A DNA stretch of 44,857 bases from a virus. The stretch lies in the IMG/VR virus record IMGVR_UViG_3300037087_000168, positions 1 to 44,857 of that record; one strand, 5' to 3'. Shown here piece by piece: positions 8,074 to 38,979 of the stretch (within the stretch, counting starts at the first letter, position 1; the number at the start of each line of letters is the position of its first letter). The notes beneath the pieces were generated by a model. It did not search any database. It was not told the origin of the DNA and worked only from the letters and a program-made list of their open reading frames with translations. Position numbers and translations under genes: made by a program.

Positions 8074-8099
8074 AGTTGGCTACTTGGAAGGATGGCACG

Positions 8100-8750
8100 A
8101 TGAAGATCGCAATTGGAATACACTCTGCCGGATACATCCCAGATGAGGTTGCTCGACACATCATCCCGTTGATACTCCACGCGGCGAAGAATGTCGAAGC
8201 GGACTTTGCCACGATCTACTTATCAAAGTCAAAGGTTGCTGCAGCGAGAAACCAGATTGTGGAAAACGCGCTGAAGATTGGAGCGACGCACTGGCTTAGC
8301 TTAGACGTAGACCACGTGTTCAGGCCTGACCTTGTGCAACGATTGGTAGCTGCAAGTGCGCCAGACGTTGCGGCGGTTAGTGGTCTAATCCACAAACGTA
8401 GTTATCCATTCCACCAGGTCGCGTTTCGCTTTGCGCCGGGAACTGATGGACATGAGTTGGTGCAGATCTCTGATACGGCGAAGGTTGTGGAAGTTGACGC
8501 GTGCGCGATGGGTTGCACGTTGATCAATCTAGAAGCTATCCTAAAGGCAGGAGTTCCGGGACCGTGGTTTGTGGATACCGCTCGTGGTAGAAGCGACATG
8601 AACTTCTTTCGTTCGGTCCGCGTTGCCGGGCTTCGCCTGCTAATCGACGCGCAGGCGCATGTGGGACACCTTCTCGATCCTCTAGCCATCTGGCCGGAGA
8701 ACATCGACGAGGCCCGAATGGTCTACGGCCCTCCAAAGGATGCCGAATGA
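8100..8750 (+). CDS. Family 2-like (GT-A fold) glycosyltransferase
   Basis: 216 residues from the ATG at 8100, with GGAAGGA upstream. The segment AAARNQIVENAL at about 47-58 followed by LSLDVDH (D69, D71: the DxD-type metal/nucleotide-sugar site) is the signature of GT-A fold transferases of the type often found in phages. It would transfer a sugar from a nucleotide sugar to an unknown acceptor in the host cytoplasm. First gene of a tightly coupled three-gene cassette (ATGA overlap with the methyltransferase). Acceptor could be a virion protein or host glycan. Confidence 0.7.
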   Translation: MKIAIGIHSAGYIPDEVARHIIPLILHAAKNVEADFATIYLSKSKVAAARNQIVENALKIGATHWLSLDVDHVFRPDLVQRLVAASAPDVAAVSGLIHKRSYPFHQVAFRFAPGTDGHELVQISDTAKVVEVDACAMGCTLINLEAILKAGVPGPWFVDTARGRSDMNFFRSVRVAGLRLLIDAQAHVGHLLDPLAIWPENIDEARMVYGPPKDAE

Positions 8751-9328
8751 CTACCAACCTAAAAACCGAGGCGTGGGATGACCGAGTGGAACTGGCTATT
8801 CAGCGCTGGAGAACCTCCGGCGACGTCCTCTGGCGAGGTTCTCGTCTTGCGTACCAGGCATTGGCCCCCTTGTGTGCGGGCAGGACCGTGGTGGACGTGG
8901 GATGTGGCGTCGGTGCCGGCACAGCAGTGCTAGCCACGACGGCGAAGAGTGCGCGAGGAATCGACCGACAGCAGTCCGCGATCTCCTTTGCGAGGTCGAT
9001 GAACCCTCTAATGCCATTGGAAGTGTGGGACATCACACTCGAGCCGTATCCTGGCGTTTACGATGATGTGGTCTGCGTTGAAGTGATCGAGCATATCCGA
9101 GAGGCAGGCATGGCGTTACGTTGTATGATGGCTATGTCTAAGAGTATCTGGCTGACAACGCCCGAGCGAGAGGCTGGAGAGGTAACTGACCCCCGCCATG
9201 TGCGAGAGTACACCTGGCCGGAGTTAGTAGCATTGGTAGAATCGACTGGCCAAGAGGTCAAGATCTCCGGTGGGCCTAGTCCTGGTTCGCACGCCCAAAT
9301 GGTTGCGCATGTGGAGGTGCTGTCATGA
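8747..9328 (+). CDS. Class I SAM-dependent methyltransferase
   Basis: 193 residues. Motif I VVDVGCGVGAGT at about 48-59 binds AdoMet, followed by GIDRQQSAI (motif II region) and the VEVIEH segment typical of Methyltransf_11/23 proteins. No DPPY/NPPY motif, so DNA adenine methylation is unlikely; small-molecule, sugar or protein methylation fits better. ATGA overlaps on both sides with the glycosyltransferase and deacetylase genes suggest one pathway acting on one glycan. Confidence 0.75.
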   Translation: MTTNLKTEAWDDRVELAIQRWRTSGDVLWRGSRLAYQALAPLCAGRTVVDVGCGVGAGTAVLATTAKSARGIDRQQSAISFARSMNPLMPLEVWDITLEPYPGVYDDVVCVEVIEHIREAGMALRCMMAMSKSIWLTTPEREAGEVTDPRHVREYTWPELVALVESTGQEVKISGGPSPGSHAQMVAHVEVLS

Positions 9329-9897
9329 ACCTGCGACCCACGTTGGTCTCATTCGATGATGGCCTGCTCGAAGGGTTGAAATGGGCTCGAACGATGGCTC
9401 AGCTTGGGCTCCAAGGCACGTTCTACATCTGTCCGGGACTGCTCGGTGGCGAGTTCATCCGTCCAGGGCAGTGGTGCCTGACGGAGGCTCAGGTCGAGCA
9501 GATTGTGGGTTGGGGCCACATCATTGCGAACCACACATGGGCTCACGAAGCTCCGGCGTCGCACGTGCATATCGTCGTGCTGGACTCTATCCACCGAACG
9601 GAAGCTTGGCTGGAAAAAAGAGGCTACGACGGAAAGCGCCTCGCGTTGACGTTCGGTTCGGAGGGTGGTCGTTGGGATGGCAACTTTGTGGAGACACTCC
9701 TTCAAGAGGGTTATGGGGTGAGAGACTTCACGGAAGGGCAGGAGTCGACAGAACTTCCATCCAAAGGACTCCGCACGTTCCACGGCAACCATTCGACATC
9801 CGACGAGGCATTTGCAAAGTTCATCTACAGCCTTGCTGAGGCGGTGGAGTCGGGAGGGCAGCCTTCCCCCGACCCGACCCACCCCTTGGCAGTTTAA
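9325..9897 (+). CDS. Polysaccharide deacetylase (NodB/CE4-type)
   Basis: 190 residues. The N-terminus has SFDDG (D11, D12) and then ANHTWAH with the H..xH pair H70 and H74, the catalytic base and metal ligands of carbohydrate esterase family 4. The family removes N-acetyl groups from chitin-, peptidoglycan- or capsule-type sugars. No signal peptide, so it acts in the cytoplasm or as part of a virion. The later family motifs are less clear and the protein is on the short side. Third gene of the glycan cassette, between decoration-type and connector genes. Confidence 0.75.
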   Translation: MNLRPTLVSFDDGLLEGLKWARTMAQLGLQGTFYICPGLLGGEFIRPGQWCLTEAQVEQIVGWGHIIANHTWAHEAPASHVHIVVLDSIHRTEAWLEKRGYDGKRLALTFGSEGGRWDGNFVETLLQEGYGVRDFTEGQESTELPSKGLRTFHGNHSTSDEAFAKFIYSLAEAVESGGQPSPDPTHPLAV

Positions 9898-12528: not shown

Positions 12529-12541
12529 CAAGGAGATCGAC

Positions 12542-13177
12542 ATGAGACAGCTTGCTGGAGAGACGTTCCAACTGAAGGGCACGACTGACTTCCGTGGTGG
12601 GACGGTTGAGTTTGACGACGGACAGTTAGCCATGACCGTCATTGAGAAGGAACTTCTGAAGGAGATGCCTGCGTCGTTCACGGACTTACGTGTGTGGGAC
12701 GACCTTGCAGCGTTGCTGCCTGGGACGGCCGCGTCGGATGATCTCGCCATCATTGAGGGAACCTGGGGAGCGAACGCTCCGACCGTTCGTTCATCTGACG
12801 GTAAGAACACTACCATCACGCAACGACTGAGGACAAGGCAGATTCTGGATCCGCACTACGTGGCAGCAGGTGGGGTGCAGGTCGTGATCACGGCTGGAAT
12901 GAATACAACGGTTGCGTCTGTATCGGCGACTGTTGATGTTGAGTGCTATGAAGACGACGGTGATGGAGGGGTCTCGGCTGATCTCTGCGCGACGGCTGCG
13001 CAGTCGATTAACTCACTGACGAAAGCCACTAAGGCGTTTGTTATCACCCCGACCAACTTGGCGGGGGGTTCTGTACTCGATATCCGTATCACAATTGCGA
13101 TTACTGACTCCGCGACCGCGACTGCAGTCATCGGCGAGATCTCCAAGATCGCCGTGCTGGAGGACGTCCGTGGGTAG
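12542..13177 (+). CDS. Putative structural protein with beta-sandwich, 211 aa
   Basis: ATG at 12542 with AAGGAG upstream. N-terminal helical segment, then a Thr/Val/Ala-rich beta region with conserved-looking DPHYVAAGG and VDVECYEDDG stretches. Overlaps the next gene by 8 bp. Possibly a tail-tip or head fibre protein; unrecognised. Confidence 0.6.
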   Translation: MRQLAGETFQLKGTTDFRGGTVEFDDGQLAMTVIEKELLKEMPASFTDLRVWDDLAALLPGTAASDDLAIIEGTWGANAPTVRSSDGKNTTITQRLRTRQILDPHYVAAGGVQVVITAGMNTTVASVSATVDVECYEDDGDGGVSADLCATAAQSINSLTKATKAFVITPTNLAGGSVLDIRITIAITDSATATAVIGEISKIAVLEDVRG

Positions 13178-13820
13178 TACGTTCGATAGTCTGATCCAGA
13201 GGGTTGAGAGTCTGGAAAGGTTGCTGGCTCAGCCTCGCCTTGCCGACGACCCGCTGCCGCAACAGGTCCAGGCACTGCAGAGTGCTGTGGCCGTGCTCCA
13301 GCCGAAGGTCGAAGCAGTGGTGGACGCAACGCCAACTGCGACCGTCGATGCACCGCCAGAGGTGCCGGCGTTGACACAGCCTGCCCGCGTGGGAGGGCCT
13401 CCCCAGACGGAGTGGGTTGTGATAACAGACTCGGTAGTGACACCCAGTTTTTTCCTTGGCAGTCTTCACGCTGACTGGACTAGTGGAACAACGGTGTCAG
13501 TGGACCCGGTAGACATTCACGGTACGGTGACAGGTGCTGCAGCTGTATCCGTTTATGTTCAGGCGAGCCAAGCTTCTTACTCCATGCACAACTCGACGAA
13601 ACTGGCAGCCGGAACGATCATCCCGTACATGCTCGACGCGGACGGGGACGCCTACGTCGTTGGGATGCCGATTGTGGTGCAGACCAGTACGCGACTAAGC
13701 GCCATCGTCGCTGGCGTGGGCACGCTCCAGATCAAGACAATGGATACTTGGGGCGCGTTCAGCGGAACGGAATCCGCATGGGTGGACGCCATTGACGCCG
13801 AGGAGTGCGCCGATGCCTAA
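13170..13820 (+). CDS. Putative fibre or spike protein with N-terminal coiled coil
   Basis: GTG start at 13170 with GGAGG six bases upstream, overlapping the previous stop. Residues about 4-50 have heptad spacing of hydrophobics (SLIQRVESLERLL, ALQSAVAVLQPKV), a trimeric-coiled-coil type stalk, then a Pro/Thr linker and a beta-rich C-terminal domain. That layout fits small phage fibres. It overlaps the following cysteine-rich gene by 8 bp. Confidence 0.6.
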   Translation: MGSTFDSLIQRVESLERLLAQPRLADDPLPQQVQALQSAVAVLQPKVEAVVDATPTATVDAPPEVPALTQPARVGGPPQTEWVVITDSVVTPSFFLGSLHADWTSGTTVSVDPVDIHGTVTGAAAVSVYVQASQASYSMHNSTKLAAGTIIPYMLDADGDAYVVGMPIVVQTSTRLSAIVAGVGTLQIKTMDTWGAFSGTESAWVDAIDAEECADA

Positions 13821-14745
13821 CACTCCCGGCGCTCTGGTCCTGACTGGCAGCGGCAAGCTGGCCGTCACCGCCGACGGTAAGCTGCGCGTCTACAACGCCG
13901 CCGGCGAGTGCCCGGAGTGCTGCGGGGGGTTGACGATCTACGTCCTGACGCCCTGCGAATGCAACCTCTCGGACACCCTGTATACGACGAACGACCTCTC
14001 CGACTCGGTAGACAAGATCGTGACCATCGACAGCGCGGACGACGCCATCTGCTATGTGGTCAGCGTCTACACGGATGGCGGCAGCCCCACGCTCACGGAC
14101 GTGACCGTCGTCGATACCTACGACGATTGCGAGACCTGTTGCGATGACCACGGGCACAGCGAGGCCGCTGGCAACTGCACGTATTACTGTTCGGGGCATA
14201 TTCCAGAGTATCTGACGCTCACAGCCAGCAACCTCATCTTCCCGACGTGCCTGCTCCCGAGCAACTGCGGGGGCGCACTGGGCTCCAGCGGCCGGTACGG
14301 TTGGGACACGCAGCCGGTCGAGATCAATCAGTCGTTCAAGCTCGGCCCAATGACCGGGGTGCCGGGCGTTGCGCACGGCTGCCGATGGTCGTTGGCGCAA
14401 GAACTCGACATTCCCCAACTCTGGAACTGGTACGACAACGCGGACACGGACTGCCAGACCATCCTCAGCCAGCAGGGACCGTTCCACTGGCAGTGGAACG
14501 TCGATCTCTCGGACGGACCTGAGTCTGCCTACTCACCGGCGATCCTGGTTCGCGGCATCTTCCTATGGGGAGGCGCCTCTCGGGCCGGCTTCCGCGCCCG
14601 TCCGCAACTGATCGCCACCCTACCCATGAGCAACTGCGTGACCGGGTCTTTCTCGAACGCCGTGGACTCCTGCGACATGCGAATCCTCTACGGCGATGTC
14701 AACTACGGCGCCTACGCAGGGAGTGTGACCGTTGCCCCCTTCTGA
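13813..14745 (+). CDS. Cysteine-rich protein, 310 aa (17 Cys)
   Basis: ATG at 13813 after GAGGAG. Unlike its neighbours it has 17 cysteines, many in close sets (ECPECC, PCEC, DCETCC, NCTYYC, CLLPSNC), plus many aromatic residues. No signal peptide is present, so disulphides would need an oxidising site, or the sets may bind metal. Codons strongly favour C/G at the third position and G+C is higher than upstream. The pattern resembles cysteine-rich hypothetical proteins I associate with Planctomycetota and their phages. Likely an acquired virion or adhesion protein; function unknown. Confidence 0.65.
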   Translation: MPNTPGALVLTGSGKLAVTADGKLRVYNAAGECPECCGGLTIYVLTPCECNLSDTLYTTNDLSDSVDKIVTIDSADDAICYVVSVYTDGGSPTLTDVTVVDTYDDCETCCDDHGHSEAAGNCTYYCSGHIPEYLTLTASNLIFPTCLLPSNCGGALGSSGRYGWDTQPVEINQSFKLGPMTGVPGVAHGCRWSLAQELDIPQLWNWYDNADTDCQTILSQQGPFHWQWNVDLSDGPESAYSPAILVRGIFLWGGASRAGFRARPQLIATLPMSNCVTGSFSNAVDSCDMRILYGDVNYGAYAGSVTVAPF

Positions 14746-15283
14746 CTTCACAACCTCTTACGCCTGCCGCAACCCGGACCACACGCACTGCCGCGCCTGT
14801 CGCGCCGACGCGGAGTGGCGCACGCGAGTCGGCGCGCCGGGGGTGTGCCCATTCAACGAGAACCCGCCGCCCTTTGTCCCGCCGCCAGTGCCGCCGGAAC
14901 CGTCATGGGTGGCGGTTCGCCAGGCGATTTGCGAGGCCTGTGATCTGCGCAAGACGTGCGGTCTATGGTCAGGTACGAAGTGCCACGGGAATGCGCTCCT
15001 GAATCGTCCAGGGATGATCTGCCCCGCCTATCCGCCCCGATGGCCGTCGCCTCCGCCAGGTTCTCCTGCACCGAGGCCAGCCGGCCCCACGCCCCCGCCG
15101 GAGTTCTACTCCCGCCGGCGCGTCCTGTGCTGGGACTGCTGTCATGGCGGCCCCTGTCCCGTCACCGGCCGCAGTATCTGCCAGCGGGATGCGAGGCTGC
15201 GTGACCCGCTGGCCATGTGCCCGGCCGAACCCCCGAAGTGGAAACCAATACTAATAGGAGCCCCTTCTGATGGCCATCATTAA
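14732..15283 (+). CDS. Cysteine/proline-rich protein with duplicated motif, 183 aa
   Basis: TTG start at 14732 with GGGAG upstream, overlapping the previous gene. About 15 cysteines in a repeated unit: residues 61-104 and 130-170 both carry C..C, C, C and end CPA.PPRW or CPA.PPKW, and a partial unit lies at 12-41. Pro-rich linkers (PPPFVPPPVPPEP, PPPGSPAPRP) join them. The units look like small metal-binding or disulphide-stabilised modules. G+C reaches about 78% locally. It is followed by a 14-bp overlap with the next virion gene. Unknown function. Confidence 0.6.
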   Translation: MPPSDFTTSYACRNPDHTHCRACRADAEWRTRVGAPGVCPFNENPPPFVPPPVPPEPSWVAVRQAICEACDLRKTCGLWSGTKCHGNALLNRPGMICPAYPPRWPSPPPGSPAPRPAGPTPPPEFYSRRRVLCWDCCHGGPCPVTGRSICQRDARLRDPLAMCPAEPPKWKPILIGAPSDGHH

Positions 15284-16235
15284 ATCGACAGACCCTGACC
15301 TTGGTGAGATTATTGACGGGCTTCAGAACTATAAGCCCGCCACTCCAGCTAGCGCTGATGCAAAACTCGCCGCGACACGCTACGTCCCTCCCAAGCAGTC
15401 GTTGGCTGGTGCGATGGAGGAGATCGCAGCGAATGCAGCTGAGATCAACGCCAAGAGTGATGCGAAGCTGAAGGCTCGCGCAATCGACGAAATGTCCCAT
15501 GCGTATCAGGTTGGACCTATGCTGATGCCTGACAAGCATCTGAAGGTGTTGGTCGACGGGCTGGCCAAAGGTGTGACACACGACCAGATCAGAAGGCTCG
15601 GCGTGCTCCCACCCGAGTACAGGATCGACCCTAAGGCGAAGGGTAGTGGCGCACCTATCGGTGAAATCGTTCAAGGCTACCAGACCTCGACCACCATGAC
15701 GACTCAGCAGGCGTTGGACAGGATCCGTGACCCGAAGGAGCGTGCGACGGTCGAGGCAATCTTGGCCAAGCACGCCGCGCTACCACCGGCGCCTCAGCCC
15801 TCGGCTTCTGCTGCTCCAGCTCCAGGCACGCGGAACGTCTCTCCGGCGACGGCGAAGAAGGAGCAAGCCCAAGACGCGCAGATCGCTGAGTCGAAGGCGC
15901 GGATCACGGAGAAGGCTACAGAGTTCGCGGCCACGACAGCAAAGAGCAACCTGCTAATTGTCAAGCATTTGAAAGACCTGGTCGCTAACAATGGCGAGTC
16001 TGCTGAGACCCGAGTCGCTGCGAAGAAGCAATTAGACCAGATGGCCGAGTTTTTTGACGTCGAAATTGAAGACCTCACGAATCCTACCGCGCTGCTTTCC
16101 TGGTCTACAAAGCTCTATGGAGCAGGAACAGTTAGAGGTCAGGCTGGCATTTCTAGCGACCCTATCAAGCTCGGTAGCGACGGGAAGCACTACATCAAGC
16201 ATAAGGACGGGATGTACACGCCGGTGACAGAATGA
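15270..16235 (+). CDS. Putative internal virion protein, 321 aa
   Basis: ATG with ATAGGAG upstream. Nearly all-helical, Ala/Lys/Glu-rich, with a Pro/Ala linker at about residues 170-190 and a C-terminal segment LGSDGKHYIKHKDGMYTPV. Size and composition match the smaller core or ejection proteins that precede giant internal virion proteins in podoviruses. Its stop overlaps the next start (ATGA). Confidence 0.55.
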   Translation: MAIIKSTDPDLGEIIDGLQNYKPATPASADAKLAATRYVPPKQSLAGAMEEIAANAAEINAKSDAKLKARAIDEMSHAYQVGPMLMPDKHLKVLVDGLAKGVTHDQIRRLGVLPPEYRIDPKAKGSGAPIGEIVQGYQTSTTMTTQQALDRIRDPKERATVEAILAKHAALPPAPQPSASAAPAPGTRNVSPATAKKEQAQDAQIAESKARITEKATEFAATTAKSNLLIVKHLKDLVANNGESAETRVAAKKQLDQMAEFFDVEIEDLTNPTALLSWSTKLYGAGTVRGQAGISSDPIKLGSDGKHYIKHKDGMYTPVTE

Positions 16236-17344
16236 AGGTAATCCTGTTAGGAGCTGAAGGTGCAGTTGGGACCAGCCTACGTCGCATTCTGCGAGGGTGG
16301 GGTGTGGGGACGGTGTCGGTTGATCTGCCATCCCAATCGGAGGGGCCGAAACGTGACGGGCCTCGTGTAGCCAGGGAGGTGTCTAAGTTCACGATCCCGG
16401 ATGTCATGCGGTTGTCCGACTTCCGCCCTGGCGATATTGTGGTCGATCTGGTACCGACTCTAGATAAGATCGCTGCGGTGAAGGCTCTCTCGAAGTATGG
16501 CGTATCCGTGGTCAACACCACGTGTATCTCCGGTGGTGGGGCGACCTCCGAGTTCGTCGACTGTCTGCAAGACCCATGGCGGAAGAAGATGCAAGAGCTT
16601 CCAATGCCGAGTCTGCTAAACTGTGGTGCCAACCCAGGTAATGTCAACGTCGCCGTGGCGGATATGGCGCCGTCGTCAGAAGCCCAGGTCACGATCTGGG
16701 AGCAGGACGGAACCACTTGCGAGAACAAACCCGTACCTTTCACCACTTGGTCTGGTCGGTGGAAAGAGTTCTGGACCGAGTTCACTGACGAGGCAACCTG
16801 GAAAGCGCAATGGCGTGAGGGGAAGCTCAGCCTGGACTTCCTTGACGGACCGCCGGTCAAGAACATCACGACCATAGAGGTTCCGAACGTGGGAACGATC
16901 CGAGGTGGGATGTGCGAGCATGAGGAACTGATCTCCATCGCGAACCAGTGGCATTGTGGTTGTGACTACGTCTACGGCTGGGAGGATTCGAACTTGGACG
17001 CCATGGTGGCGTTTGCGGAAGAGCAGGCAACTCGACCGGAGGAGCCCACCAAGATCAAGCACGTGCTGAAAGGCCGAGACATTTTGGAAGGGACTGACAT
17101 CGTTGGCGTACGTATCGTCGACGGTGGGGCTACGCGATGGTGGTCACATGCAGTCGCTAATGAGGACCGAAGAGTCCCGGATGACTCCACCGCAACGGCT
17201 TATTTGGTCGCGGCGTCTATCGCCGTCGGGGTCAGCCTGCTACTCGAAGGGCGTGTTCCGAGTGGCGCTTGGTTCCCGGAAGATACCGACACTACCCTCT
17301 GGCTTGAACGCCTGGGGACACTCTGCGAGGTGAAGAATGGCTAA
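16232..17344 (+). CDS. Homospermidine-synthase / saccharopine-dehydrogenase-like enzyme
   Basis: 370 residues. The N-terminus VILLGAEGAVG is a dinucleotide-binding Rossmann turn (G7, G10, G13). NCGANPGNV at 130-138, WEQDG at 156-160, TTW at 171-173, EHEELISIA at 229-237, a YVYG segment and a late FPEDTDT follow in the order I recall for bacterial NAD-dependent homospermidine synthase, which makes homospermidine from putrescine/spermidine. Other saccharopine-dehydrogenase-fold enzymes remain possible, and one acidic residue I expect near 100 (in NTTCISG) is absent. ATGA overlap upstream and 8-bp overlap downstream embed it between two internal virion genes, so it is expressed late. Polyamines neutralise packaged DNA; whether this gene does so is inference. 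Confidence 0.7.
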   Translation: MKVILLGAEGAVGTSLRRILRGWGVGTVSVDLPSQSEGPKRDGPRVAREVSKFTIPDVMRLSDFRPGDIVVDLVPTLDKIAAVKALSKYGVSVVNTTCISGGGATSEFVDCLQDPWRKKMQELPMPSLLNCGANPGNVNVAVADMAPSSEAQVTIWEQDGTTCENKPVPFTTWSGRWKEFWTEFTDEATWKAQWREGKLSLDFLDGPPVKNITTIEVPNVGTIRGGMCEHEELISIANQWHCGCDYVYGWEDSNLDAMVAFAEEQATRPEEPTKIKHVLKGRDILEGTDIVGVRIVDGGATRWWSHAVANEDRRVPDDSTATAYLVAASIAVGVSLLLEGRVPSGAWFPEDTDTTLWLERLGTLCEVKNG

Positions 17345-20300
17345 GAAGGCGACAGGCTTGCCGGATGGGGTGTTCGAGGTCCAACCGAATGGGTTGCCGG
17401 TGGGTGTATATGAGGTCCAGCCGAATGGGCTTCCAGTTGGTGTATATGAGGTCCAACCTGGAGTTATTGGCGGGAAGGATTCTCCATTTAAGGCATGGTT
17501 GCGAAAGTCGTCCCGTCGGACTGCTGCTACTGCTGGGCTCAGCGTGCGTGACATGCCTGCGCCGCCGAAGCTGCAGTTAACAGTCCCTCTGGTGCGACCC
17601 TCTGAAGGGCCGCAGCCTGTCGTGCCTGGGAATATCAACCTGCTAACCCGTCCGAAGGTGGCAATGCCTGACGGTGGATATGCGACGGTCCGCTCTATCA
17701 ACCTCTCCGAAGACGGCAAGCATATCCTAATCCCCACCGTCGTCAACGGCAAGATGGTATCTAACGACGAGGCGATAGTTCACTACCATAAGACCGGTGA
17801 GCATATGGGCATCTATGGCAGCGACAACGAAGCAGTTCTCGCAGGGCAGTTGATAGATGCATCCGAGGCGCAGAGGTTAGTGCTGAAGGACGCGGTTGAG
17901 AGGTCGCCCCTACTGAAGAGCCTCTACACAAACATCCTTTCAACCTTTGCCTCACTTGATGCTGAGCTAAAGAGTTACGAGGCTAAGGGCGAGGTGGGAA
18001 AGTTTGTTCAACGGCTGGTCAAGCTGCCGGAGCAGATCGCGCAGTTTGGTATTGGTAAGGCCGGAGCGGCGTACCCTTGTGTGCTCACTAATGTTCTTAC
18101 ATCCCATGTGATGGGTGGTTTCTTTAATGATCCCCACCCTGAAGATGCTGACGCGGCCAAGCTTCTCTTGCAAATGCAGAGTATGCTGGATCAGTCAACG
18201 AAGCGTTCGGACTTGGTAGCCTTTGAGCAGTTCTTCAAAACTTTTACATTTGGCATTGTTAATCCTGCCGAGCCAGTTCTCCCTGGACAAAAGGGTGTTG
18301 GTGAATTATTCAACCTAGCAGCGATGATGGTACCAGGAGGCCAGTCTGCGATCTTCGGTAAGATTGCGAAGTACGTCGGAAAAGGCGGGTCGCTCGTACT
18401 CAAGTCGATGCCCTGGGCGGAGAAGTTGGTTGTGAAGGTCGCGGCTACGCCTATGATTGGTAAGTTGGTAGTGGGGTCTACAAAGGAGATCGCCAAGCTC
18501 CATATCTCCAATGCAATCATGGGCGTGCTGACACCGGAGAACATTCTGGAACTCGCCAGGGGAGCAGATCCTGCAACGCTCATCTCACAACGTCTCGCAA
18601 CCATTGCACATCCTGATGTGGGTGTCATCGTGTTCGGCACGGTCATGGGGATGCTCCACGAATCACTCCCACGCCTGCGAGAGAAGCTGCAGGAGAATCT
18701 TAAGAGCGCCGGTGTCGATAGGGTGGTCACTCTGGAAGAGGCCGCTGATGCGAAAGAAGCTGGAGCGAAGGCCATCGACGACTTCAACAAAACGCTGCTA
18801 GCTGGTCTGGCAAAACAGGCAGATGAAGCGGCTCAGGCGGAGAAGCCTTCGACGGCAGAGGTCGACAAGAAGACCGCCGAAACAGGGTTCGAGGTGGGGC
18901 AGACCCCGGTCCAGCCCCAAGTTGGCGCGGCAGCGCCCGCCCCGGTGGAGAAGCCAAAGTCCGGCCTTGGTTTCACGAAGCGTACCTTTGGGGCCAGTGG
19001 AGGTTGGCTGACTGCTGAAGAGAAGCCCGCGTCGAAGATCCTCCCCAAGAAGGCCACCCCGAAAGCAGCTCAGCCTGCTCTCCGCCCTGACGCCCTCGAC
19101 GCGTCAAAGATCCCGTGGAAGTCGACGAAGACTGCGAAAGCTAAACAGGCTGTCGCTCAGCTTCCGAAGCCCACCCTCACCACCTACCGTGTTGGGCAAG
19201 AGAAGGGCATGGCTGGAACCTATCATGGCACCAACCTTGCAGACTCCTCTCGCGGAAGCAAAGAAGTACAACTACCACGTGAGGGCGAGGGAGTGGTGTC
19301 AGTCAGCGCGCCAGAGCTGAAGGGCGACTTTGCCGGTTATCCAATGGTGGATTACTTTGAAAAGCACGCCACTCCAACAGATAGAAAGTTGCTGAAGGAG
19401 CTACTGAAAGGACGCGAAAACTCACCTTACTTATTCCGAGAGCTTCTCGGTGCGCTTATCGCAAAAAGGAATGGCGTGAAGGTGATTCACTTCACTAGCG
19501 ACAAGGGTGTTGTCTCTGTTGATCTGCGCCAGCATACGGAGACCGAGCTGCTGGCTTCAGCACACAAGGTAGCCCACGAGTACGGAAGGCCCCAGGAAGG
19601 CAAAGCGCCGGAGAAGGCTCCCGCCGCCCCGGCTCCGGCGAAAAAGGCCCCTAAAGGCCCCGTTGCCCCGGCTAGCCCCCCTGTGGAAGCTCCCTCGGCG
19701 GAGACCTCTCCCAGAGCTGCTGCCCGCACGGCGGTTATCGACACGGGTGATACTCACCAAGAGTCCCTCAAAGCACTACGACTACTGCAAGCTCACGAGG
19801 ACGAGTTAGACATGGCAGGACTCGACCAGTTACACGCTGCCGAAGCGGAGGCGGCTCGGACAGGGAAGGCGCTAGCGGAGGCAAAGGCTGCGTGGAAGAA
19901 GTACACTGGCAATAAGGGAAGGCCGGTGGGAACTGGTGGTACCACACCTGCTGCAGCCGGGACGGAGGCCGAGATCAGAAAGGCCAATCCCTATCGCACC
20001 ACTGCTTGGGTACGGGCAGAGGTAGCAAAGGTACGGGAGGCACAGCTTGATGCGAAGGCGGACGCCGTGGCAGGAATGGAAGTCACGAAAGCTGCGCCTG
20101 GAGAGCCAGTAGAGTCTATGGCAAGGTCGAAGGAGCCGTCGCCAGAGGACGTAGCTCAGGCGAACGCCGACCGGGAGCATGTCTATATACTCCATGCCGC
20201 TGGAGACTACGACGGCATTCGGAAGCTGGTTCAGGATCGAGCCGGAGAGGACCCCGCCGCTCAGCAAAAGTGGTTGGAGGGGATGCTCGGGATGACTGAA

Positions 20301-23300
20301 GCTCCGGCGATGAGTCGAGACGGGAGGCCAGTCAAAAAGACCCTCGCTCAGATTCTGGCCACCACTACGTTCGTCCCTGAGAAGGACCTCTCTCGTGCAG
20401 CGAAGGCCATTCGGGTCATGGCCCGCCGGTTCGGGGTTGGTGTACGCTTCATCGAGAACGACCCCGACGCATGGGGTTATCACGTGGCTGCCGGCCATGT
20501 GCTGATGTCCCATGACGCACCAGCTGAAGGCATGGCGCACACGCTGCTCCACGAGGTGTTCGGTCATGAGTGGCAAGCTCGCGATCCGGAGGGTTACAAG
20601 GAGTTCATGGACGAGGTCCGGCGGCAGGCTCCGCAAATCGTGGATGCTGCATCTCGGAACTACGGCGATCCGTTGCGACTTGTGACGTCGATCCTTGACG
20701 AGGCCGGTGCCGAGACGATGCCAATGATACTGACTAATGGAAGTTTTCTCCGAGGGCTTGCCAGGACAGCTCCACAGATCTGGAGGCGGCTACACCTTGC
20801 GTTCCACGACTTCATCCGCTCTACCATGCGCCGCCTTGGGCTAATGACCGATGTGGGTCTCGGCACGAAGGCGGAAGTGCTGGAGCACCTAGGCGAGATC
20901 GCCGGGCCTCTGATGGACCGCTGGCAGAGGCGGGCACTCGAGCAGACGCCCCTCGCATGGGAGGCCATCGAGAATGCCGAGCTTGCCGCGATGCCTCGCC
21001 CGCTTCCGCCTGGAGTCGACGACGAGCTTAATCGTCGGAACCGGCTACGCGAACAACGTGGCGAACGTTGGGCAGCAGTTGGGGCTGCACGTGCCTCAAA
21101 GGACCCTGCTCGCATCGAAGCCGCGTTGACCTCCTATGGGGAGCTGCGTGCGAAGCAGGCTGCGTCTGATGCTCGCCTTGACGAGCTTGGCTTTGGCACG
21201 ACTGCCCGTAGTGAGTACTACGCAGCACAGCGGGCAGAAGCTTTCAGAGGTCGTGGACGTGGAACTTCCAAGGCCACGACTCCTTCAACGTACCAACGTG
21301 AAGAAGCTCCTGGCCTGTCGAAGGCCGAGCTGCTCGCACTCGCGATGAAGTCAGCAACGAAGCTGTCGCTCACTAACCCGGAAGCGGTCAATACAATCCT
21401 TGCCACAAGAGGCCATGAGGTGGAGGGAGGCCGTGCGTATCCAAATCCAGAACAGCTCCTGTCAGATTTCCGCTCCTTCGAGATGGCCGCCGAACGTGAC
21501 AACCAAATGTTGAAGGCACCAGCTGACGTGCGCGAAGCTCTGGCCGAGGCGAAATCGAAGTCCGACCACCGCCGAACTGCCCTGCCGTCGAAGGTGGGGC
21601 AGTTCCTGTCAAAGTCCGAGAACTACCTGGCAGATGTAGGGGACCAGGGTGGAGTCAACTTCCATCGGGCGTTTGTCGAAATGGCCCTCGGCGTGTTAGG
21701 GGCTCGAAGCGCGGGCCGTTCTGCGAAGGTTGGCCTGAAAACGATCCTCCGGTCGCATGGGTCGTCGTATCGAAAGTTCTACAACAGCCGCGCGATGAGC
21801 GACCAAGTCACCGCGTTCATGGAGGGGAAGCTCCCTAATGCCTCTCCGCTGATCAAGGACCTCGGCACGTACGTCAAAGACTTCGCAAAGTTGAAAGAGA
21901 ACGACGTGTCGATAGCTCGTATCCGCACAGCGGTGGATGGCGTGCAGGACAAGGGCGTGAAGCCTGCTAACATGCCAGACGACGCTTACAGGCGTGCGCA
22001 AGAGATCGCGGCTAGTGGTGGTGATATCGACGCGAAGCTCCATGCCGAGTTTGACGGGAAGGGATATGGGATCATCGCCAAGAACTGGGCGCCTCGTACG
22101 TTGTGGGGCCAGGGTGGGAATAGCATCATCACACACGACCTGTCGTTCGCGTCGGTCAAACCGGGTGAGGGGATGCACTCTCGGATCGCCGACGGGGTAA
22201 CCGAAACGACGGGATGGCAGCGTGGAACAATCCCACGTCGAATGGAAGTTATGGAGCGGGACATCGTCAACGCCAAGGTCATCCGGCCGTGGCTGACGTA
22301 CATGGACAATGCGCTCGACATGATGCGCGAGCGGGTGAAGGTCGCGATCAAAGATATGCCGACGGAGAAGGCTAACGTTGCGATGAAGCGCTTCAATGAT
22401 ATCGTAAGTAACGTCCGCCAGTGGGCAGATGAGATTCGTGGGAGGCACGCGCCGTCCACGGGGTGGGGCAGGTTGAATGCCCAAATCCATGGGATGTTCT
22501 TCACGACTCGATTCGCGACGGGGGTGGCTGGCATTCGGAACTTCGTCGAAGTCCTCCGCAACGCGGATACCTTCACCGGCAGTCTAGTCAATCCACTCAA
22601 TTATCGTGGATGGGCTGGTGGGAAGACCTACTTCGAGCGGTACGTCGACCAGCTGCCGGGCCTTGGAGATGACATCTCTCAACTCGGCCAGCCACTGACC
22701 AACCCGTTCTGGCGACCGCTTCAACTCCTGGCGCACAGCTTTGGCCTCGGTGATTGGGCCGCCCGCAAGATTGCGTTCACGGTCAGAGGGAATCGAGTCC
22801 TGCAGGCGTTCGACGGGTGGAAGCCCGGCTCGACCAAAGGCCCTTCCATTCAGGATCGTATGCGGTCGGCTGGCCTCGACGAGTGCATCCCCGCACAGCG
22901 GGCTCGGTTCATTGAGGAACTACATCTGCACGGTGTGGAAGCCGCAGCCTCCTATGCCGGTGACAACCACACCGCCGTCGTCCATGGTCGCTACGAGAGA
23001 TGGGCTCGCTCGCCGGGCGAGCAAGGGCAGCTCGGCCGAGTGTTCGGCTCCGTGCTAGAGTACCCTAGAGGGAAGGTTCAGCAGCTGGCAACCGACGTAG
23101 GCAAGATCGCGAGGGGCACGTGGCCAGAGAAGGTCACAGCTAGCGGTCGAATTATCGGCGCCTACCTGACCATCGGCATGACCCAGATGCTGGTCGACCG
23201 AATCAGGGGCCAGAATGAGCAGCAGAAAGAGGATGATAAGGGGTGGTGGAGTCTGGCTAACCCTGCGAAGGTGCTAGGTGAGTTGGTCTGGAAGCCGGGT

Positions 23301-23927
23301 GGTGTGGCAACGGAGCTCTGGTCACAGATTGGGAATTGGATGGATGCCCTGGTCAGAGTCGCCGAAGACGGCTCTGACACCCCGGCGTGGGATAAGCTGA
23401 CCAAGTCGTCGACCACACTCGCCCGTGACTTCGCCCCATACTACCAGCAACTCGTCACCTCGATCAACGCCCTGACCGACCGATCGAACTACGAAGGGAT
23501 TGACGTCGAGTTGATCCGCAAGATGCGGGCTGCGGTTGATAAGAGTTACACTCCCAGGCCATCACCTAAGCTGCAACGTGACATAGTCCAGACCGGCCAG
23601 GCGCTGATTATCGGAACGAACCCGGGTGAGCAGAAGTGGTCCGTGACTGAAATGGGCTCGAAGGCGCAGCAACTCATACGACTCGCCGAAAAGACCGCCT
23701 TTGAGGATGGCTACTCCGATCCGGCCGCTCGTGAACGGGACCTCCTCCAGATGGAACGCCTGGCTGGGGCCTTCAAACGGAGGGGCCTCTCACTCGAAGG
23801 CGACTCTTTGCAATACTACCTAGCAGCCGCTGCAGAGGAGAACGCTCTCAAACCGGCGGCTCCCCCGAACCCTTATGGCGGTCATGGGCCAGAGCTTCTA
23901 CAGGAGTGGCTGCAGCACAAGAAGTAG
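17337..23927 (+). CDS. Giant internal virion protein (DNA ejection / large polyvalent protein)
   Basis: 2196 residues, typical of the largest ejection protein of podoviruses. Order: three 12-residue repeats (7-42), a domain with LIPTVVNGKMVSNDEAI (about 100-175) that recurs near the N-terminus of giant phage virion proteins, a helical region, an Ala/Pro/Lys-rich linker (about 480-600 and 740-830), HEVFGH at 1072-1077 as in large polyvalent proteins, and a long helical C-terminal part with hydrophobic stretches (about 1720-1740, 1935-1955). HEVFGH is spaced HExxxH and is not a standard HExxH protease. It probably enters the host with DNA. It is the last gene of the late unit. Confidence 0.8.
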   Translation: MAKKATGLPDGVFEVQPNGLPVGVYEVQPNGLPVGVYEVQPGVIGGKDSPFKAWLRKSSRRTAATAGLSVRDMPAPPKLQLTVPLVRPSEGPQPVVPGNINLLTRPKVAMPDGGYATVRSINLSEDGKHILIPTVVNGKMVSNDEAIVHYHKTGEHMGIYGSDNEAVLAGQLIDASEAQRLVLKDAVERSPLLKSLYTNILSTFASLDAELKSYEAKGEVGKFVQRLVKLPEQIAQFGIGKAGAAYPCVLTNVLTSHVMGGFFNDPHPEDADAAKLLLQMQSMLDQSTKRSDLVAFEQFFKTFTFGIVNPAEPVLPGQKGVGELFNLAAMMVPGGQSAIFGKIAKYVGKGGSLVLKSMPWAEKLVVKVAATPMIGKLVVGSTKEIAKLHISNAIMGVLTPENILELARGADPATLISQRLATIAHPDVGVIVFGTVMGMLHESLPRLREKLQENLKSAGVDRVVTLEEAADAKEAGAKAIDDFNKTLLAGLAKQADEAAQAEKPSTAEVDKKTAETGFEVGQTPVQPQVGAAAPAPVEKPKSGLGFTKRTFGASGGWLTAEEKPASKILPKKATPKAAQPALRPDALDASKIPWKSTKTAKAKQAVAQLPKPTLTTYRVGQEKGMAGTYHGTNLADSSRGSKEVQLPREGEGVVSVSAPELKGDFAGYPMVDYFEKHATPTDRKLLKELLKGRENSPYLFRELLGALIAKRNGVKVIHFTSDKGVVSVDLRQHTETELLASAHKVAHEYGRPQEGKAPEKAPAAPAPAKKAPKGPVAPASPPVEAPSAETSPRAAARTAVIDTGDTHQESLKALRLLQAHEDELDMAGLDQLHAAEAEAARTGKALAEAKAAWKKYTGNKGRPVGTGGTTPAAAGTEAEIRKANPYRTTAWVRAEVAKVREAQLDAKADAVAGMEVTKAAPGEPVESMARSKEPSPEDVAQANADREHVYILHAAGDYDGIRKLVQDRAGEDPAAQQKWLEGMLGMTEAPAMSRDGRPVKKTLAQILATTTFVPEKDLSRAAKAIRVMARRFGVGVRFIENDPDAWGYHVAAGHVLMSHDAPAEGMAHTLLHEVFGHEWQARDPEGYKEFMDEVRRQAPQIVDAASRNYGDPLRLVTSILDEAGAETMPMILTNGSFLRGLARTAPQIWRRLHLAFHDFIRSTMRRLGLMTDVGLGTKAEVLEHLGEIAGPLMDRWQRRALEQTPLAWEAIENAELAAMPRPLPPGVDDELNRRNRLREQRGERWAAVGAARASKDPARIEAALTSYGELRAKQAASDARLDELGFGTTARSEYYAAQRAEAFRGRGRGTSKATTPSTYQREEAPGLSKAELLALAMKSATKLSLTNPEAVNTILATRGHEVEGGRAYPNPEQLLSDFRSFEMAAERDNQMLKAPADVREALAEAKSKSDHRRTALPSKVGQFLSKSENYLADVGDQGGVNFHRAFVEMALGVLGARSAGRSAKVGLKTILRSHGSSYRKFYNSRAMSDQVTAFMEGKLPNASPLIKDLGTYVKDFAKLKENDVSIARIRTAVDGVQDKGVKPANMPDDAYRRAQEIAASGGDIDAKLHAEFDGKGYGIIAKNWAPRTLWGQGGNSIITHDLSFASVKPGEGMHSRIADGVTETTGWQRGTIPRRMEVMERDIVNAKVIRPWLTYMDNALDMMRERVKVAIKDMPTEKANVAMKRFNDIVSNVRQWADEIRGRHAPSTGWGRLNAQIHGMFFTTRFATGVAGIRNFVEVLRNADTFTGSLVNPLNYRGWAGGKTYFERYVDQLPGLGDDISQLGQPLTNPFWRPLQLLAHSFGLGDWAARKIAFTVRGNRVLQAFDGWKPGSTKGPSIQDRMRSAGLDECIPAQRARFIEELHLHGVEAAASYAGDNHTAVVHGRYERWARSPGEQGQLGRVFGSVLEYPRGKVQQLATDVGKIARGTWPEKVTASGRIIGAYLTIGMTQMLVDRIRGQNEQQKEDDKGWWSLANPAKVLGELVWKPGGVATELWSQIGNWMDALVRVAEDGSDTPAWDKLTKSSTTLARDFAPYYQQLVTSINALTDRSNYEGIDVELIRKMRAAVDKSYTPRPSPKLQRDIVQTGQALIIGTNPGEQKWSVTEMGSKAQQLIRLAEKTAFEDGYSDPAARERDLLQMERLAGAFKRRGLSLEGDSLQYYLAAAAEENALKPAAPPNPYGGHGPELLQEWLQHKK
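17355..17462 (+). repeat. Three tandem 36-bp units in the virion gene
   Basis: Three in-frame 36-bp copies (17355-17390, 17391-17426, 17427-17462) encode GLP.GV.EVQP-type units. The second and third are closest to each other, suggesting recent expansion. Confidence 0.85.
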
Positions 23928-24091: not shown

Positions 24092-25291
24092 CTATCTCCT
24101 TACTCGATAAGCGACTCCGTCCGGGGAGTCCATCCGTTCAATCCGCTTGGACGCAACTAAGGTCGAGATTCCCTCGTTAAAATCCCTCATAGACATTCGA
24201 TGGGACACGCCACGCAAGAGGGTGTGTCCCACCACGCCTCGCTCCCCGGCCATTCCAATATAGAGTGCCAGCATTTCAACGAACGCTCCCTTCTCGGTTG
24301 ACGTGATTAGGGTCATCACTCGTGGCATGTACGCTTCGGAACGGGCCAGAAGTACCTTGGCCCAGTTGAGATGCTTCTCCTCCACGATCACCTGCCTTTG
24401 GACAGGATGCTCTGACGCAGACATGATCATGCTGATCGCCAGCAGGTGGTAGTGCCATCGAGACGCATACCCGGAGAGGATCGGCGAGGATACAAACGGG
24501 TGTGACCGATGCTCGATATACATCTTGTCGTACAACTCCCACGCGGCGGGACTGAGATCGACCGGCCCTTCCAGACGACGGATCTGCTGGAGACTTCGGG
24601 TGATGGTGGACTTTCTCTCGTGGTCTTCCGATGTCAGTCGGGGCCTCGGAACAGGTGGCGGAAGCTCGTCCGTAAAAATGAAAAGCATACGACTGGTAAG
24701 GCCAGAGCCGACAGCGTCAAGAGGTACAGCGGCTCGAAGAAGGTCAGCGGTGGAACCGGCAAGTATCGAGAGACAGACATTGGTGAGTTTCTCTCGGCCA
24801 TCTTTAATCGTCTCCTTGGTCATTTCACTTTTGCAATCAAACATGCGGATCAGCACAGGCGCAATGCCACGCTCGTAGCTTTTCTTGTTCAGGAATATCG
24901 CCAGCTCGTCGGCAATCACCACACCTTCTGCCCTCACCACACGACCCTCCGGGAGCTCTACCATCCTCTCCCCCCGCTTCATCGACTTGAATAGCGCCTC
25001 TGGTGTGAGATCGGTCGAGATGAAGTTGACCGGAGGCTCAACCACGATTAGGGACTCTGCCAGGTTGATCACGGTCGATTTCCGATGTGCGCCAGAGCCC
25101 GCGACGAGGACCACGTACAGGTTCGGAAAGACTGTGAACACCCCCATGTCAAGCCAGATGGCCCTGCCAAGGGTGGCGGAGACCATAGAAAGCCCGCCCC
25201 ACACGGCGAACAACTCGGAGATCTCCGTATTTTTGCAAAGGCGACAGAAGTCCATCACCGGGTTGGACGGCTTGGTTTCGGACTCAGTCAC
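24092..25291 (-). CDS. DUF3987-like P-loop ATPase (helicase/primase-associated type)
   Basis: 399 residues, GTG start overlapping the polymerase stop (GTGA). Hydrophobic N-terminal segment, then VVLVAGSGAHRKST (about 59-72), a Walker A variant in which Arg precedes Lys-Ser-Thr, as in DUF3987 proteins; VVIADELAIF (about 123-132) is the Walker B with Asp-Glu. The C-terminal part has a winged-helix-like region. These ATPases often stand where a replicative helicase would be. It is the last gene of the early unit and no other helicase is evident, so it may load or drive the replisome. Confidence 0.7.
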   Translation of the reverse strand: MTESETKPSNPVMDFCRLCKNTEISELFAVWGGLSMVSATLGRAIWLDMGVFTVFPNLYVVLVAGSGAHRKSTVINLAESLIVVEPPVNFISTDLTPEALFKSMKRGERMVELPEGRVVRAEGVVIADELAIFLNKKSYERGIAPVLIRMFDCKSEMTKETIKDGREKLTNVCLSILAGSTADLLRAAVPLDAVGSGLTSRMLFIFTDELPPPVPRPRLTSEDHERKSTITRSLQQIRRLEGPVDLSPAAWELYDKMYIEHRSHPFVSSPILSGYASRWHYHLLAISMIMSASEHPVQRQVIVEEKHLNWAKVLLARSEAYMPRVMTLITSTEKGAFVEMLALYIGMAGERGVVGHTLLRGVSHRMSMRDFNEGISTLVASKRIERMDSPDGVAYRVRR

Positions 25292-26592
25292 GCTCGCACC
25301 TTCTCCACATCGTACCAGTTCGGGCCGAATGCAATCTCGGCAGGGATTCTGACCGTCAGCCCTGTCCTAAACGTGAGTGGCACCTCGAACTCTTCCCGCA
25401 TCATCGCAATAGTGGCGTCTTTCGCTGTGATCGGAACCTCTGCCACAATCTCGTCATGCGCCTGCAGCAGCGGGTAACCACCTGTCGAGATCAACCGCTC
25501 GTCCAATCGAAAGAACGCGTGGTTGATAAGGTCCCCTACTGTAGACTGAGGCTCAAACGCCGTAGCCTCACGGAGGGTTGTGTCGTCCAGCCGACCAAGG
25601 AAAATGCGTAATCTGCCCCAGCAGGTCCGAAGGCGACGGACATTAGAGATCTCCAAATCCACCCAGTCCCACCATTGTAGCAAAAGGGGATGAGTGGCAC
25701 GGTAGCGTGCAACTGCCACCTTTGCCTCGGCGAAGGGGATGTCTGCTTGCTTGACCGCGACGTTCGGTCCACCACGATAGTTCGCTCCATGTGTCACTCC
25801 CTTCGTTCGCTGCCGCCGACTGTCCCTTTGTCCCCCCACATTGCCCCCCTTGCTGATGGCCATCTTCCACGCGGAGTCCTCCTCTTTGAGTTCCTTAACC
25901 GTTCCTCCGTAGAGGAGTTGGGCATTTTCAAGATGGATGTCGAAGTCAGGATCTCCAAAGCGTCCCAGCAATGCTCGATCTCCACACAGCGCCGCAACAA
26001 CTCTGGCCTCAGCCTGACTACCATCTGCCTTAACAAAGACAAAACCTGGTCGGGCGATAAAACACCTTCGGCTAGGTCCTCGCTTTTGGTTCTGCAGATT
26101 CCCTCCAAATCCCAGGATATGTTCCGAAGAGCTGATGCGGCCTGTTGTAGTTCCTGTAGCGTTGTAGCTAGTGATAAAGTAGCTCTTTCCATCGCGAATC
26201 TCCAGAGGGCACTCAAGTTGACTACGGTCTTTCGACTGGCCCCGATAGTCGAGAAGGAGGTTGAGGATTGACACAGACGCTGGAACCAGCCTACGCAGCT
26301 TCTTGATCGCTTCCTCGTCAGAGGTGATGCCGCCTGGGAATCCTCCCTTCGACGGCTTCCTTTGCACAGGTAGTTTCATCTCGTCGTAGAGCAGTTCTTG
26401 GACCTGCTTGGGAGAGTCCGGGTTGATATCACGACCGAGCAGTTTGGCAAGACTGGCAGCAGTAGTGGCTTGAGCTACGACCGCCTCCGCGTGTAGCTTC
26501 TCGCGTAGTGTGGTATCGACCAGACAGCCTCGATTGCCGGCTCGGGCGAGGGCGAGCATGGCGGGTTGGGCGAAGTCGTGGTAGAAGGTCAT
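25288..26592 (-). CDS. Family A DNA polymerase (polymerase domain only)
   Basis: 434 residues from the ATG at 26592 (AAGGAG eight bases upstream). Motif A ADGSQAEAR with D190; motif B R-x3-K264-x3-H268-G-x2-Y271; motif C AHDEIV with HDE at 379-381. All catalytic acids are present. The 3'-5' exonuclease is missing and is supplied by the upstream gene at 26858-27988. Motif B has His where E. coli Pol I has Phe762. The protein is the phage replicative polymerase by inference. Confidence 0.9.
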   Translation of the reverse strand: MTFYHDFAQPAMLALARAGNRGCLVDTTLREKLHAEAVVAQATTAASLAKLLGRDINPDSPKQVQELLYDEMKLPVQRKPSKGGFPGGITSDEEAIKKLRRLVPASVSILNLLLDYRGQSKDRSQLECPLEIRDGKSYFITSYNATGTTTGRISSSEHILGFGGNLQNQKRGPSRRCFIARPGFVFVKADGSQAEARVVAALCGDRALLGRFGDPDFDIHLENAQLLYGGTVKELKEEDSAWKMAISKGGNVGGQRDSRRQRTKGVTHGANYRGGPNVAVKQADIPFAEAKVAVARYRATHPLLLQWWDWVDLEISNVRRLRTCWGRLRIFLGRLDDTTLREATAFEPQSTVGDLINHAFFRLDERLISTGGYPLLQAHDEIVAEVPITAKDATIAMMREEFEVPLTFRTGLTVRIPAEIAFGPNWYDVEKVRA

Positions 26593-26861
26593 TTGCAAAG
26601 CTCCTTTTTGGCCTCTTCCACATAGTCATTCAATGAGCACAACGCAGCTTCCAGCTTCACACACAGCAGACTCCTTATTTGTCCAAGTGACTTCTGCCGC
26701 CTAAACTCCTTCGGAGAGATGAGTGAGTCGGTTGCTATGCAAACTTGGAGCCTCCAACCACATGAGCCATCCTCACTAGAAGCTGGCTGATACCAGTATA
26801 TCCTGGCACGAAGCTTGGGAGCAATTCCATCCAGCAGTTGCTGCAGATCAATTACGCTCAT
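26589..26861 (-). CDS. Hypothetical protein between exonuclease and polymerase, 90 aa
   Basis: ATG at 26861 overlapping the stop of the upstream gene (ATGA); stop overlaps the polymerase start. Alpha/beta protein with several cysteines and a C-terminal helix. Strict coupling to polymerase and exonuclease genes suggests a replisome or polymerase-associated role. No family recognised. Confidence 0.65.
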   Translation of the reverse strand: MSVIDLQQLLDGIAPKLRARIYWYQPASSEDGSCGWRLQVCIATDSLISPKEFRRQKSLGQIRSLLCVKLEAALCSLNDYVEEAKKELCK

Positions 26862-27988
26862 ACCTTCAACGCCTCCATCTCTTTCAACAACGCCGTCGAA
26901 CACTCTAGCGTCACCATCGAGTCATAGCAACAGTAGACCCAGGTCTGGTGATCGTTCGCCGCGTCGTATTGCCAGTAACACGGCGTGCGGGTATAAAAGC
27001 TGCAAAGGAAGTCCAGCCCTTTCGGCAGCTCACAGTAGCAACAGTGTTGGGCAACCATGGTGTCCATCCACAACCCTTGTGTGACTATGCCGAACTCCCT
27101 CTCCACGATCCCTAGGTCGAATGGGGCGTTCTGGAGAACCTTCTCGATCTGAGGGTCCTCTAGCACCCTGGCCAGTGCTCCAAGTATCGCAACTTCTTCA
27201 TCCTCGGTCCAGTGGCTACTGAACGGGTGGTCGGTCGGGATTGGCATTTCGGTCACGCCAGGAAGGTGCTCTTCACGGGCTCTACGGCAGGAGCAAAATG
27301 GGATGCAAAGTGCCATCGCCGGAGTCGGTGCAACTGACAGACATCTGACCCTCGGGCCAAGGGTCTCGATATCCCACGCAATTCGAGGTCGCTTGCGCTG
27401 AAGGTCTGCCAGAAAGTCCATCGTCGTGGCGAATGAGGGGTCGACTACAGCTTCTCGTGATGGAAGGAAAAAGTTGCGAGAACTGCTTTCATCCCTCGCT
27501 CGCCTTAGGTCGTGTTCGACCACTCGACGATGTTCGTACAGTCGGATCGCGTTACCGGGATGCCACGTCGCAACTACTTTCCCGACTGGGGTTTGGAGGA
27601 TTGATCCCCTCCAGTCGCCAATGCCTCTTCGGCCAGTAAGAGCTCTGAGAGCCTCCTCGCCAAGAGCAATGGTGACCACAGGCGCTCGACGTAGAAGCTC
27701 CTGTTGCAACTCGTAAACGCACCTCTCAAGATCAGGGTGCGCAGTAAGGCGCTTCGCGTCGAGGTAGTAGCGGGAGAGGAAGTCGTTACCGGGAGGTCGT
27801 TCTTTCGCAACGTTCGTGACATAGCACGCATTCCTGTCGATGCCGGCCGAGGCCAGCATCTGGTTTAAAAACTTGCCCTCCGTTCCGACGAACGGCTGGC
27901 CAAGACGTTCTTCATCGGCGCCTGGAGCTTCACCGACCAAGGCGATCTTGGCCCCTGCAGGCCCATATCCTTCGACACGCCTACTCAT
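26858..27988 (-). CDS. Uracil-DNA glycosylase / 3'-5' exonuclease fusion
   Basis: 376 residues. Residues 1-165 match family 4-type uracil-DNA glycosylases: VGEAPGADE (18-26), G.PFVG..G (30-38), VTNVAKERPP, and WHPGN (142-146). Residues 195-376 are a DnaQ-type exonuclease: WDIET (D206, E208), QNAPFD (D291) and YCCYD (Tyr352 and Asp356, YxxxD), so all DEDDy residues are there. The exonuclease half is the proofreading domain the polymerase gene lacks. The fusion would excise uracil or mark it near the replication fork. It is coupled by ATGA to the next gene. Confidence 0.85.
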   Translation of the reverse strand: MSRRVEGYGPAGAKIALVGEAPGADEERLGQPFVGTEGKFLNQMLASAGIDRNACYVTNVAKERPPGNDFLSRYYLDAKRLTAHPDLERCVYELQQELLRRAPVVTIALGEEALRALTGRRGIGDWRGSILQTPVGKVVATWHPGNAIRLYEHRRVVEHDLRRARDESSSRNFFLPSREAVVDPSFATTMDFLADLQRKRPRIAWDIETLGPRVRCLSVAPTPAMALCIPFCSCRRAREEHLPGVTEMPIPTDHPFSSHWTEDEEVAILGALARVLEDPQIEKVLQNAPFDLGIVEREFGIVTQGLWMDTMVAQHCCYCELPKGLDFLCSFYTRTPCYWQYDAANDHQTWVYCCYDSMVTLECSTALLKEMEALKV

Positions 27989-30102: not shown

Positions 30103-30124
30103 GCTCGCTCCTTCCTGCACCGCC

Positions 30125-30148
30125 GGAGCCCCCTCCATAGGGGGCTCC
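30125..30148 (-). terminator. Hairpin upstream of ParB-methyltransferase gene
   Basis: GGAGCCCCCT and AGGGGGCTCC form a perfect 10-bp stem with a four-base loop, between the stop at 30174 and the start at 30102. No T-run on the transcribed strand, so a partial terminator or processing structure. Confidence 0.6.
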
Positions 30149-38203: not shown

Positions 38204-38307
38204 TTAGTGCGTCGAAAGCCAGCCGAATAGCTCATGGCCGACCACGCATATGACCGCGATAGTGAGGACAGCTCCCAGACAGGCTAGTGCGATGCGGTGG
38301 TAGTCGG

Positions 38308-38311
<4 letters not shown>
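38204..38311 (-). CDS. 35-residue single-pass membrane peptide
   Basis: ATG at 38311 overlaps the DUF7666-like stop (ATGA) with GGAGG seven bases upstream. One hydrophobic helix (about 7-27). Early small membrane protein; unknown role. Confidence 0.6.

Positions 38312-38979
<668 letters not shown>

Follow-up and report, generated by a model that had tools for sequence, protein, structure and literature searches.

The window analysed here, a stretch of 44,857 bases, is an entire IMG/VR virus record. A rightward virion operon runs through it from the portal (3189) and major capsid (6142) genes, both of which match profiles, to a gene for a 2196-aa protein ending at 23927. Within this operon lies an intact open reading frame, ATG to TAA, for a 370-aa protein (P0001) that resembles homospermidine synthase (HSS). 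It is coupled to the upstream gene through an ATGA, in which its own start and the upstream stop overlap, and its last 8 bp overlap the downstream gene, whose ATG lies at 17337.

12529-17336, no strand: variable block, for which no counterpart was found in an otherwise collinear sister phage
15270-16235, + strand: upstream gene, 321 aa, of no known family, joined to the P0001 gene by the ATGA overlap
16232-17344, + strand: gene for P0001, an HSS-like Rossmann-fold enzyme of 370 aa (open reading frame, profiles, fold, tree)
16250-16270, + strand: dinucleotide-binding loop GAEGAVG, codons 7-13, with GxxGxxG spacing (GxGxxG in HSS)
17337-23927, + strand: downstream gene, for the 2196-aa probable DNA-transfer/internal virion protein, with the 8-bp overlap

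The coordinates, both overlaps and the order of five motifs given in an earlier, sequence-only reading of this DNA were all confirmed: GAEGAVG lies at residues 7-13 of P0001, NCGANPGNV at 130-138, WEQDG at 156-160, EHEELISIA at 229-237 and FPEDTDT at 348-354. The dinucleotide loop is one residue longer than that of HSS. FPEDTDT had been counted among the blocks common to HSS, probably wrongly, as it matched the C-terminal FPEDLDT of HSS solely in a three-sequence alignment, and an alignment with 68 HSS places it on a variable EADExD segment.

The gene and its place in the virion operon

The same reading had placed P0001 between internal virion-type genes, which is supported for the operon at large, with its portal and capsid genes, and for the downstream side, where a 100-aa domain of the 2196-aa protein shares 41% identity with the minor structural protein of Salmonella phage SPN1S; the annotation in Escherichia phage Bas106 is ‘DNA transfer protein’. 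Such support is missing upstream, where profile and sequence searches with the product of 15270-16235 matched nothing. The 2196-aa protein starts, at its N-terminus, with a repeated EVQPNGLPVGVY stretch, and its HEVFGHE motif looks, by eye, metallopeptidase-like.

One sister phage, IMGVR_UViG_3300033145_002303, was recovered by a portal scan of viral contigs; its portal and capsid share 54% identity with those of the window, and the gene order of its virion operon is nearly the same. Scanning viral contigs for terminase or capsid recovered no related phage, and a further record (L016), reached via the 2196-aa gene, has just one domain of approximately 70 residues in common with the window. Searches of the whole sister record with P0001 and with Pfam PF16653, plus a local tblastn of the region, found no homolog of P0001 (the record may be incomplete), and the slot ahead of the sister's 2134-aa homolog of the large gene is occupied by an unrelated 516-aa charged protein. 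Because the sister's collinear operon is without a homolog and has an unrelated gene in the slot, the P0001 gene counts as accessory, in a part of the operon that varies. The tight overlaps had been taken to argue for long residence, a view that the sister, with the same collinear operon and no P0001 gene, does not support. The GC content of the gene (0.580) and its codon use, both in line with the rest of the phage, indicate that its arrival was not very recent, or that the donor was similar in composition; the idea that its composition looks foreign was dropped on the same figures.

Elsewhere in the window, a fusion of uracil-DNA glycosylase and 3'-5' exonuclease domains adjoins a separate family A DNA polymerase gene (26858-27988 and 25288-26598), 28531-30138 encodes a fusion of a ParB-N domain with an N6/N4 DNA methylase, and 38204-38720 is a low-complexity stretch that would be read as Gly/Glu-rich or Pro-rich repeats on opposite strands.

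Likeness to homospermidine synthase, and distance from it

Reference sets were gathered for HSS, carboxyspermidine dehydrogenase (CASDH) and other saccharopine-dehydrogenase-like (SDH-like) proteins, the HSS profile being built from 50 sequences. P0001 scored best against HSS (34.1 bits), compared with 15.8 bits for CASDH, 8.6 for saccharopine-reductase-like proteins and -0.1 for other SDH-like proteins. This likeness exceeds chance, since 200 shuffles of P0001 with equal composition scored at most 2.0 bits on the HSS profile and the best 24 matches in a mixed, HSS-rich pool of open reading frames were all HSS (24/24). Nor is the lead due to the bigger HSS set, as HSS models cut to eight sequences still gave P0001 26-33 bits.

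In the same test, true HSS score at least 471 bits, left-out divergent HSS 387-574 bits and CASDH at most 30.0 bits, so that P0001 falls outside the range of the family and just above the CASDH maximum. It shares 19-26% identity with 68 HSS and is approximately 110 residues shorter, being without the segment after GANPG, several loops and the C-terminal 60 or so residues. Pfam PF16653 (Sacchrp_dh_C) matched residues 132-361 at 21.5 bits (E 2.8e-4), short of its gathering score of 31 bits, and phmmer against solved structures returned homospermidine synthases at E ~0.06. PHROGs and NCBIfam profile searches gave no relevant match, scanning viral and genome contigs with patterns drawn from P0001 by itself, or DNA for GANPG, gave no relatives, and tblastn against 50,697 phage records gave no match at E 1. 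Against plasmids, tblastn yielded two weak matches, one a CASDH and one an HSS, and only two places among 398 Pseudomonadota genomes matched P0001, both inside HSS frames of 484-495 aa. As P0001 stands so far outside the family, the name ‘HSS-like’ is justified but plain ‘HSS’ is not yet: on present evidence it is an HSS-like outlier and not a member of the HSS family.

Phylogenetic analysis grouped P0001 with HSS, against CASDH and SDH-like proteins (support 100/99), as sister to all canonical HSS (95/97) and on a very long branch (3.66). A tree with P0001 joined to CASDH was rejected (p-AU 0.031), and one with P0001 nested in the main phage-HSS group was not (p-AU 0.112); P0001 may thus represent an ancient sister lineage of HSS, or else a phage HSS that has evolved fast.

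An AlphaFold2 model, computed from 69 sequences in which all the helper sequences were HSS, had a pTM of 0.77 and a mean pLDDT of 67.8. The 13 best VIA-align matches were all HSS (Z 26.0-23.3), followed by CASDH (Z 23.2), lysine dehydrogenase (20.0) and saccharopine reductase (approximately 19), an order in which HSS leads CASDH partly by construction, because the alignment behind the model was HSS-only. Superposed on bacterial HSS, 355 residues aligned to 6Y87 at Z 26.0, with the same bias of ranking towards HSS. Foldseek also placed HSS first and CASDH next, then lysine dehydrogenase and saccharopine reductase, and the top two matches of a BFVD structure search were virus HSS. Judged by the predicted model, the saccharopine-dehydrogenase fold class is not in doubt, and the homospermidine-synthase-like identity first proposed is upheld in that profile, predicted fold and tree all point to HSS as the nearest family.

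Active-site residues and proposed chemistry

Alignments with HSS locate the following sites:

16526-16534, + strand: codons 99-101 (I S G), at the site of HSS E117 (EPW), with no acidic residue
16625-16639, + strand: GANPG, codons 132-136, with N134 matching BvHSS N162 (inner/centre amine site)
16700-16702, + strand: codon E157, matching BvHSS E210
16748-16762, + strand: codons W173-W177, one Trp of which probably matches BvHSS W229 (alignments differ; predicted model)
16778-16780, + strand: codon E183, matching BvHSS E237 (Glu-His-Glu triad)
16919-16927, + strand: codons H230-E231-E232, with H230 matching H296 and E232 matching E298 (Glu-His-Glu triad)

In BvHSS, changes at N162, E210, E237, H296 or E298 abolish activity, while W229F/Y leave 1-2%, E117Q 1.5% and D94N 61% (PMC8489232). 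The first five residues are invariant in 50 HSS clusters and all five are present in P0001, where three alignments equate them with N134, E157, E183, H230 and E232, respectively. A counterpart of W229 is probably present as well, either W173 (in TWS) or W177 depending on the alignment, in a part of the model that is of low confidence; W173 is favoured, because the model begins the following helix at residue 175 and W229 occupies a short loop just ahead of a helix (PMC8489232). The acidic residue reported missing near position 100 is truly absent and corresponds to HSS E117, a residue of the ionic slide: P0001 has I99/S100 at a site that is E in 65/68 HSS and Q in 3/68. The Gln variants occur in three phage HSS clusters (L191:5962-7353, L194:5965-7311 and L197:5971-7326), so that an acid at this site is not strictly conserved even in HSS of phages; the same E-to-Q change costs BvHSS 98.5% of its activity (PMC8489232).

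More widely, P0001 keeps 30 of 72 near-invariant HSS columns and is HSS-type at the positions of D289 and T322, where CASDH has T and V/I. At the positions of N162, E210 and W229, where P0001 has N, E and W, CASDH shows D, a gap and F, respectively, and SDH-like proteins are without H296/E298.

We give about an even chance to the reading that P0001 is a compact, very divergent enzyme of the HSS branch, for which HSS-type diamine chemistry would be likely. By analogy with BvHSS, it would most likely be NAD-dependent and join diamines, possibly yielding homospermidine. Bound NAD+ would oxidise a diamine at one end by accepting a hydride, the diamine being likeliest putrescine supplied by the host; the resulting imine or aldehyde would be held over the Trp by a cation-pi contact while a second amine adds, with His230 of the Glu-His-Glu triad as base; and reduction of the Schiff base by NADH would release homospermidine or a closely related product. 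The gene would be expressed late, together with the virion genes, and the benefit for the phage could lie in packaging, translation or surface modification. Against this reading stand a profile score far below that of any HSS, the loss of E117, the altered glycine spacing, the missing residues and the very long branch; nor were other polyamine genes recognised among the genes searched.

A lesser but substantial possibility is that P0001 has the same fold and catalytic core and a different substrate pair, other than putrescine alone, on which it would work with NAD(P) as an amine dehydrogenase or an enzyme of reductive condensation, with carboxyspermidine-type chemistry or another amine and aldehyde as examples. 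The E117 acid that draws diamines in is lost, H230-E231-E232 is the HEE triplet typical of CASDH, and P0001 stands outside all canonical HSS (95/97), about as distant as CASDH is. Against this, P0001 shows none of the CASDH-type residues at the N162, E210 and W229 positions, and its union with CASDH in a tree is rejected (p-AU 0.031).

The operon also contains an enzyme trio at 8076-9897, encoding a glycosyltransferase-like protein, a methyltransferase and a polysaccharide deacetylase, which may modify the particle or cell surface. The glycosyltransferase-like call was made by eye, its only profile match being phrog_1574, to which no function is assigned. It is unlikely that P0001 works with this trio as a decorating enzyme, placing an aminobutyl-type group onto a lysine of a virion protein or onto a sugar, even if its gene lies in the same virion operon and HSS-type chemistry is similar in principle to that of deoxyhypusine synthase: the sister phage keeps the trio, at 34-43% identity and with the first two genes in swapped order, and has no P0001 gene, so the two are not obligate partners. 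Just as doubtful is the combined proposal that P0001 forms a family of its own, intermediate between HSS and CASDH, uses a distinct amine substrate, is made with the virion proteins and acts on the particle itself, whether by neutralising the charge of packaged DNA in the head or by decorating an ejected protein with amines. Least probable, although the very long branch, missing segments and missing E117 would fit it, is that P0001 is a relative of HSS that has lost its catalytic activity or is decaying, and either serves in binding or structure or is on its way to loss, since five or six of seven catalytic residues and the 30 near-invariant columns persist at approximately 22% overall identity in an intact reading frame with phage-typical codon use.

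Comparison with known systems

Virus-borne HSS is already known, and what is new here is the degree of divergence of P0001 and the location of its gene. Virus-borne polyamine enzymes have so far been mostly canonical HSS of large phages; P0001 extends them to a small podovirus-like phage, in a minimal, outlying form among putatively late genes. If active, it would represent an HSS-type enzyme smaller by approximately 100 residues and make it simple to test whether polyamine is produced by a phage for use in its particle; if its substrate differs, it would represent a new branch of the saccharopine-dehydrogenase fold. For some phages it has long been established that the particles contain polyamines and that these take part in packaging (PMC7226272).

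Ralstonia phage phiRSL1 encodes a functional HSS, and homologs occur in Achromobacter phage Motura and in giant viruses, among them Tupanvirus and Harvovirus (PMC9992855), and at least 88 IMG/VR viral contigs encode ordinary HSS relatives. In the two such contigs inspected, HSS neighbours were clamp, clamp loader and dCMP deaminase genes in one and RtcB, NinI-type and endolysin genes in the other. The ‘homospermidine synthase’ of JG004 (PMC3120641; 32% identity, E 0.32) was not accepted as a precedent. Two further phage records carry SDH-like genes, one of 636 kb from an uncultured phage (L024:1501-2616, falling among SDH-like proteins in a quick tree) and one of 5.3 kb from a faecal phage (L025:1276-2733).

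Saccharopine reductase and lysine 6-dehydrogenase (1FF9, 3ABI) share the fold of P0001 at Z 19-20, and its [ST]WS motif occurs too in saccharopine-reductase-like proteins, but these enzymes are without H296/E298, on which ground a saccharopine reductase identity was dropped, and their profile gives P0001 at most 8.6 bits. CASDH (8DEB, 8H52) is closer, with fold Z 23.2, similar length and the HEE triplet, a CASDH hallmark in place of the H-[S/N]-E of HSS (PMC10413350); CASDH nevertheless has GFDPG, D for N162, no E210 and F for W229, where P0001 has GANPG, N, E and W, and membership of CASDH was dropped on these residues and the tree (p-AU 0.031). The HSS-type enzymes of phages and giant viruses are, like P0001, virus-borne, yet they are full-length and canonical, whereas P0001 is short, outside their radiation and encoded in a virion operon. 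Bacterial HSS (B. viridis 4PLP, P. aeruginosa 6Y87, L. pneumophila 2PH5) resemble P0001 in predicted full-length fold and have GANPG, E210, E237, H296, E298 and probably W229 in common with it; they differ in being approximately 480 aa long with E117 and GxGxxG, compared with 370 aa, no E117 and GxxGxxG in P0001, at 19-26% identity.
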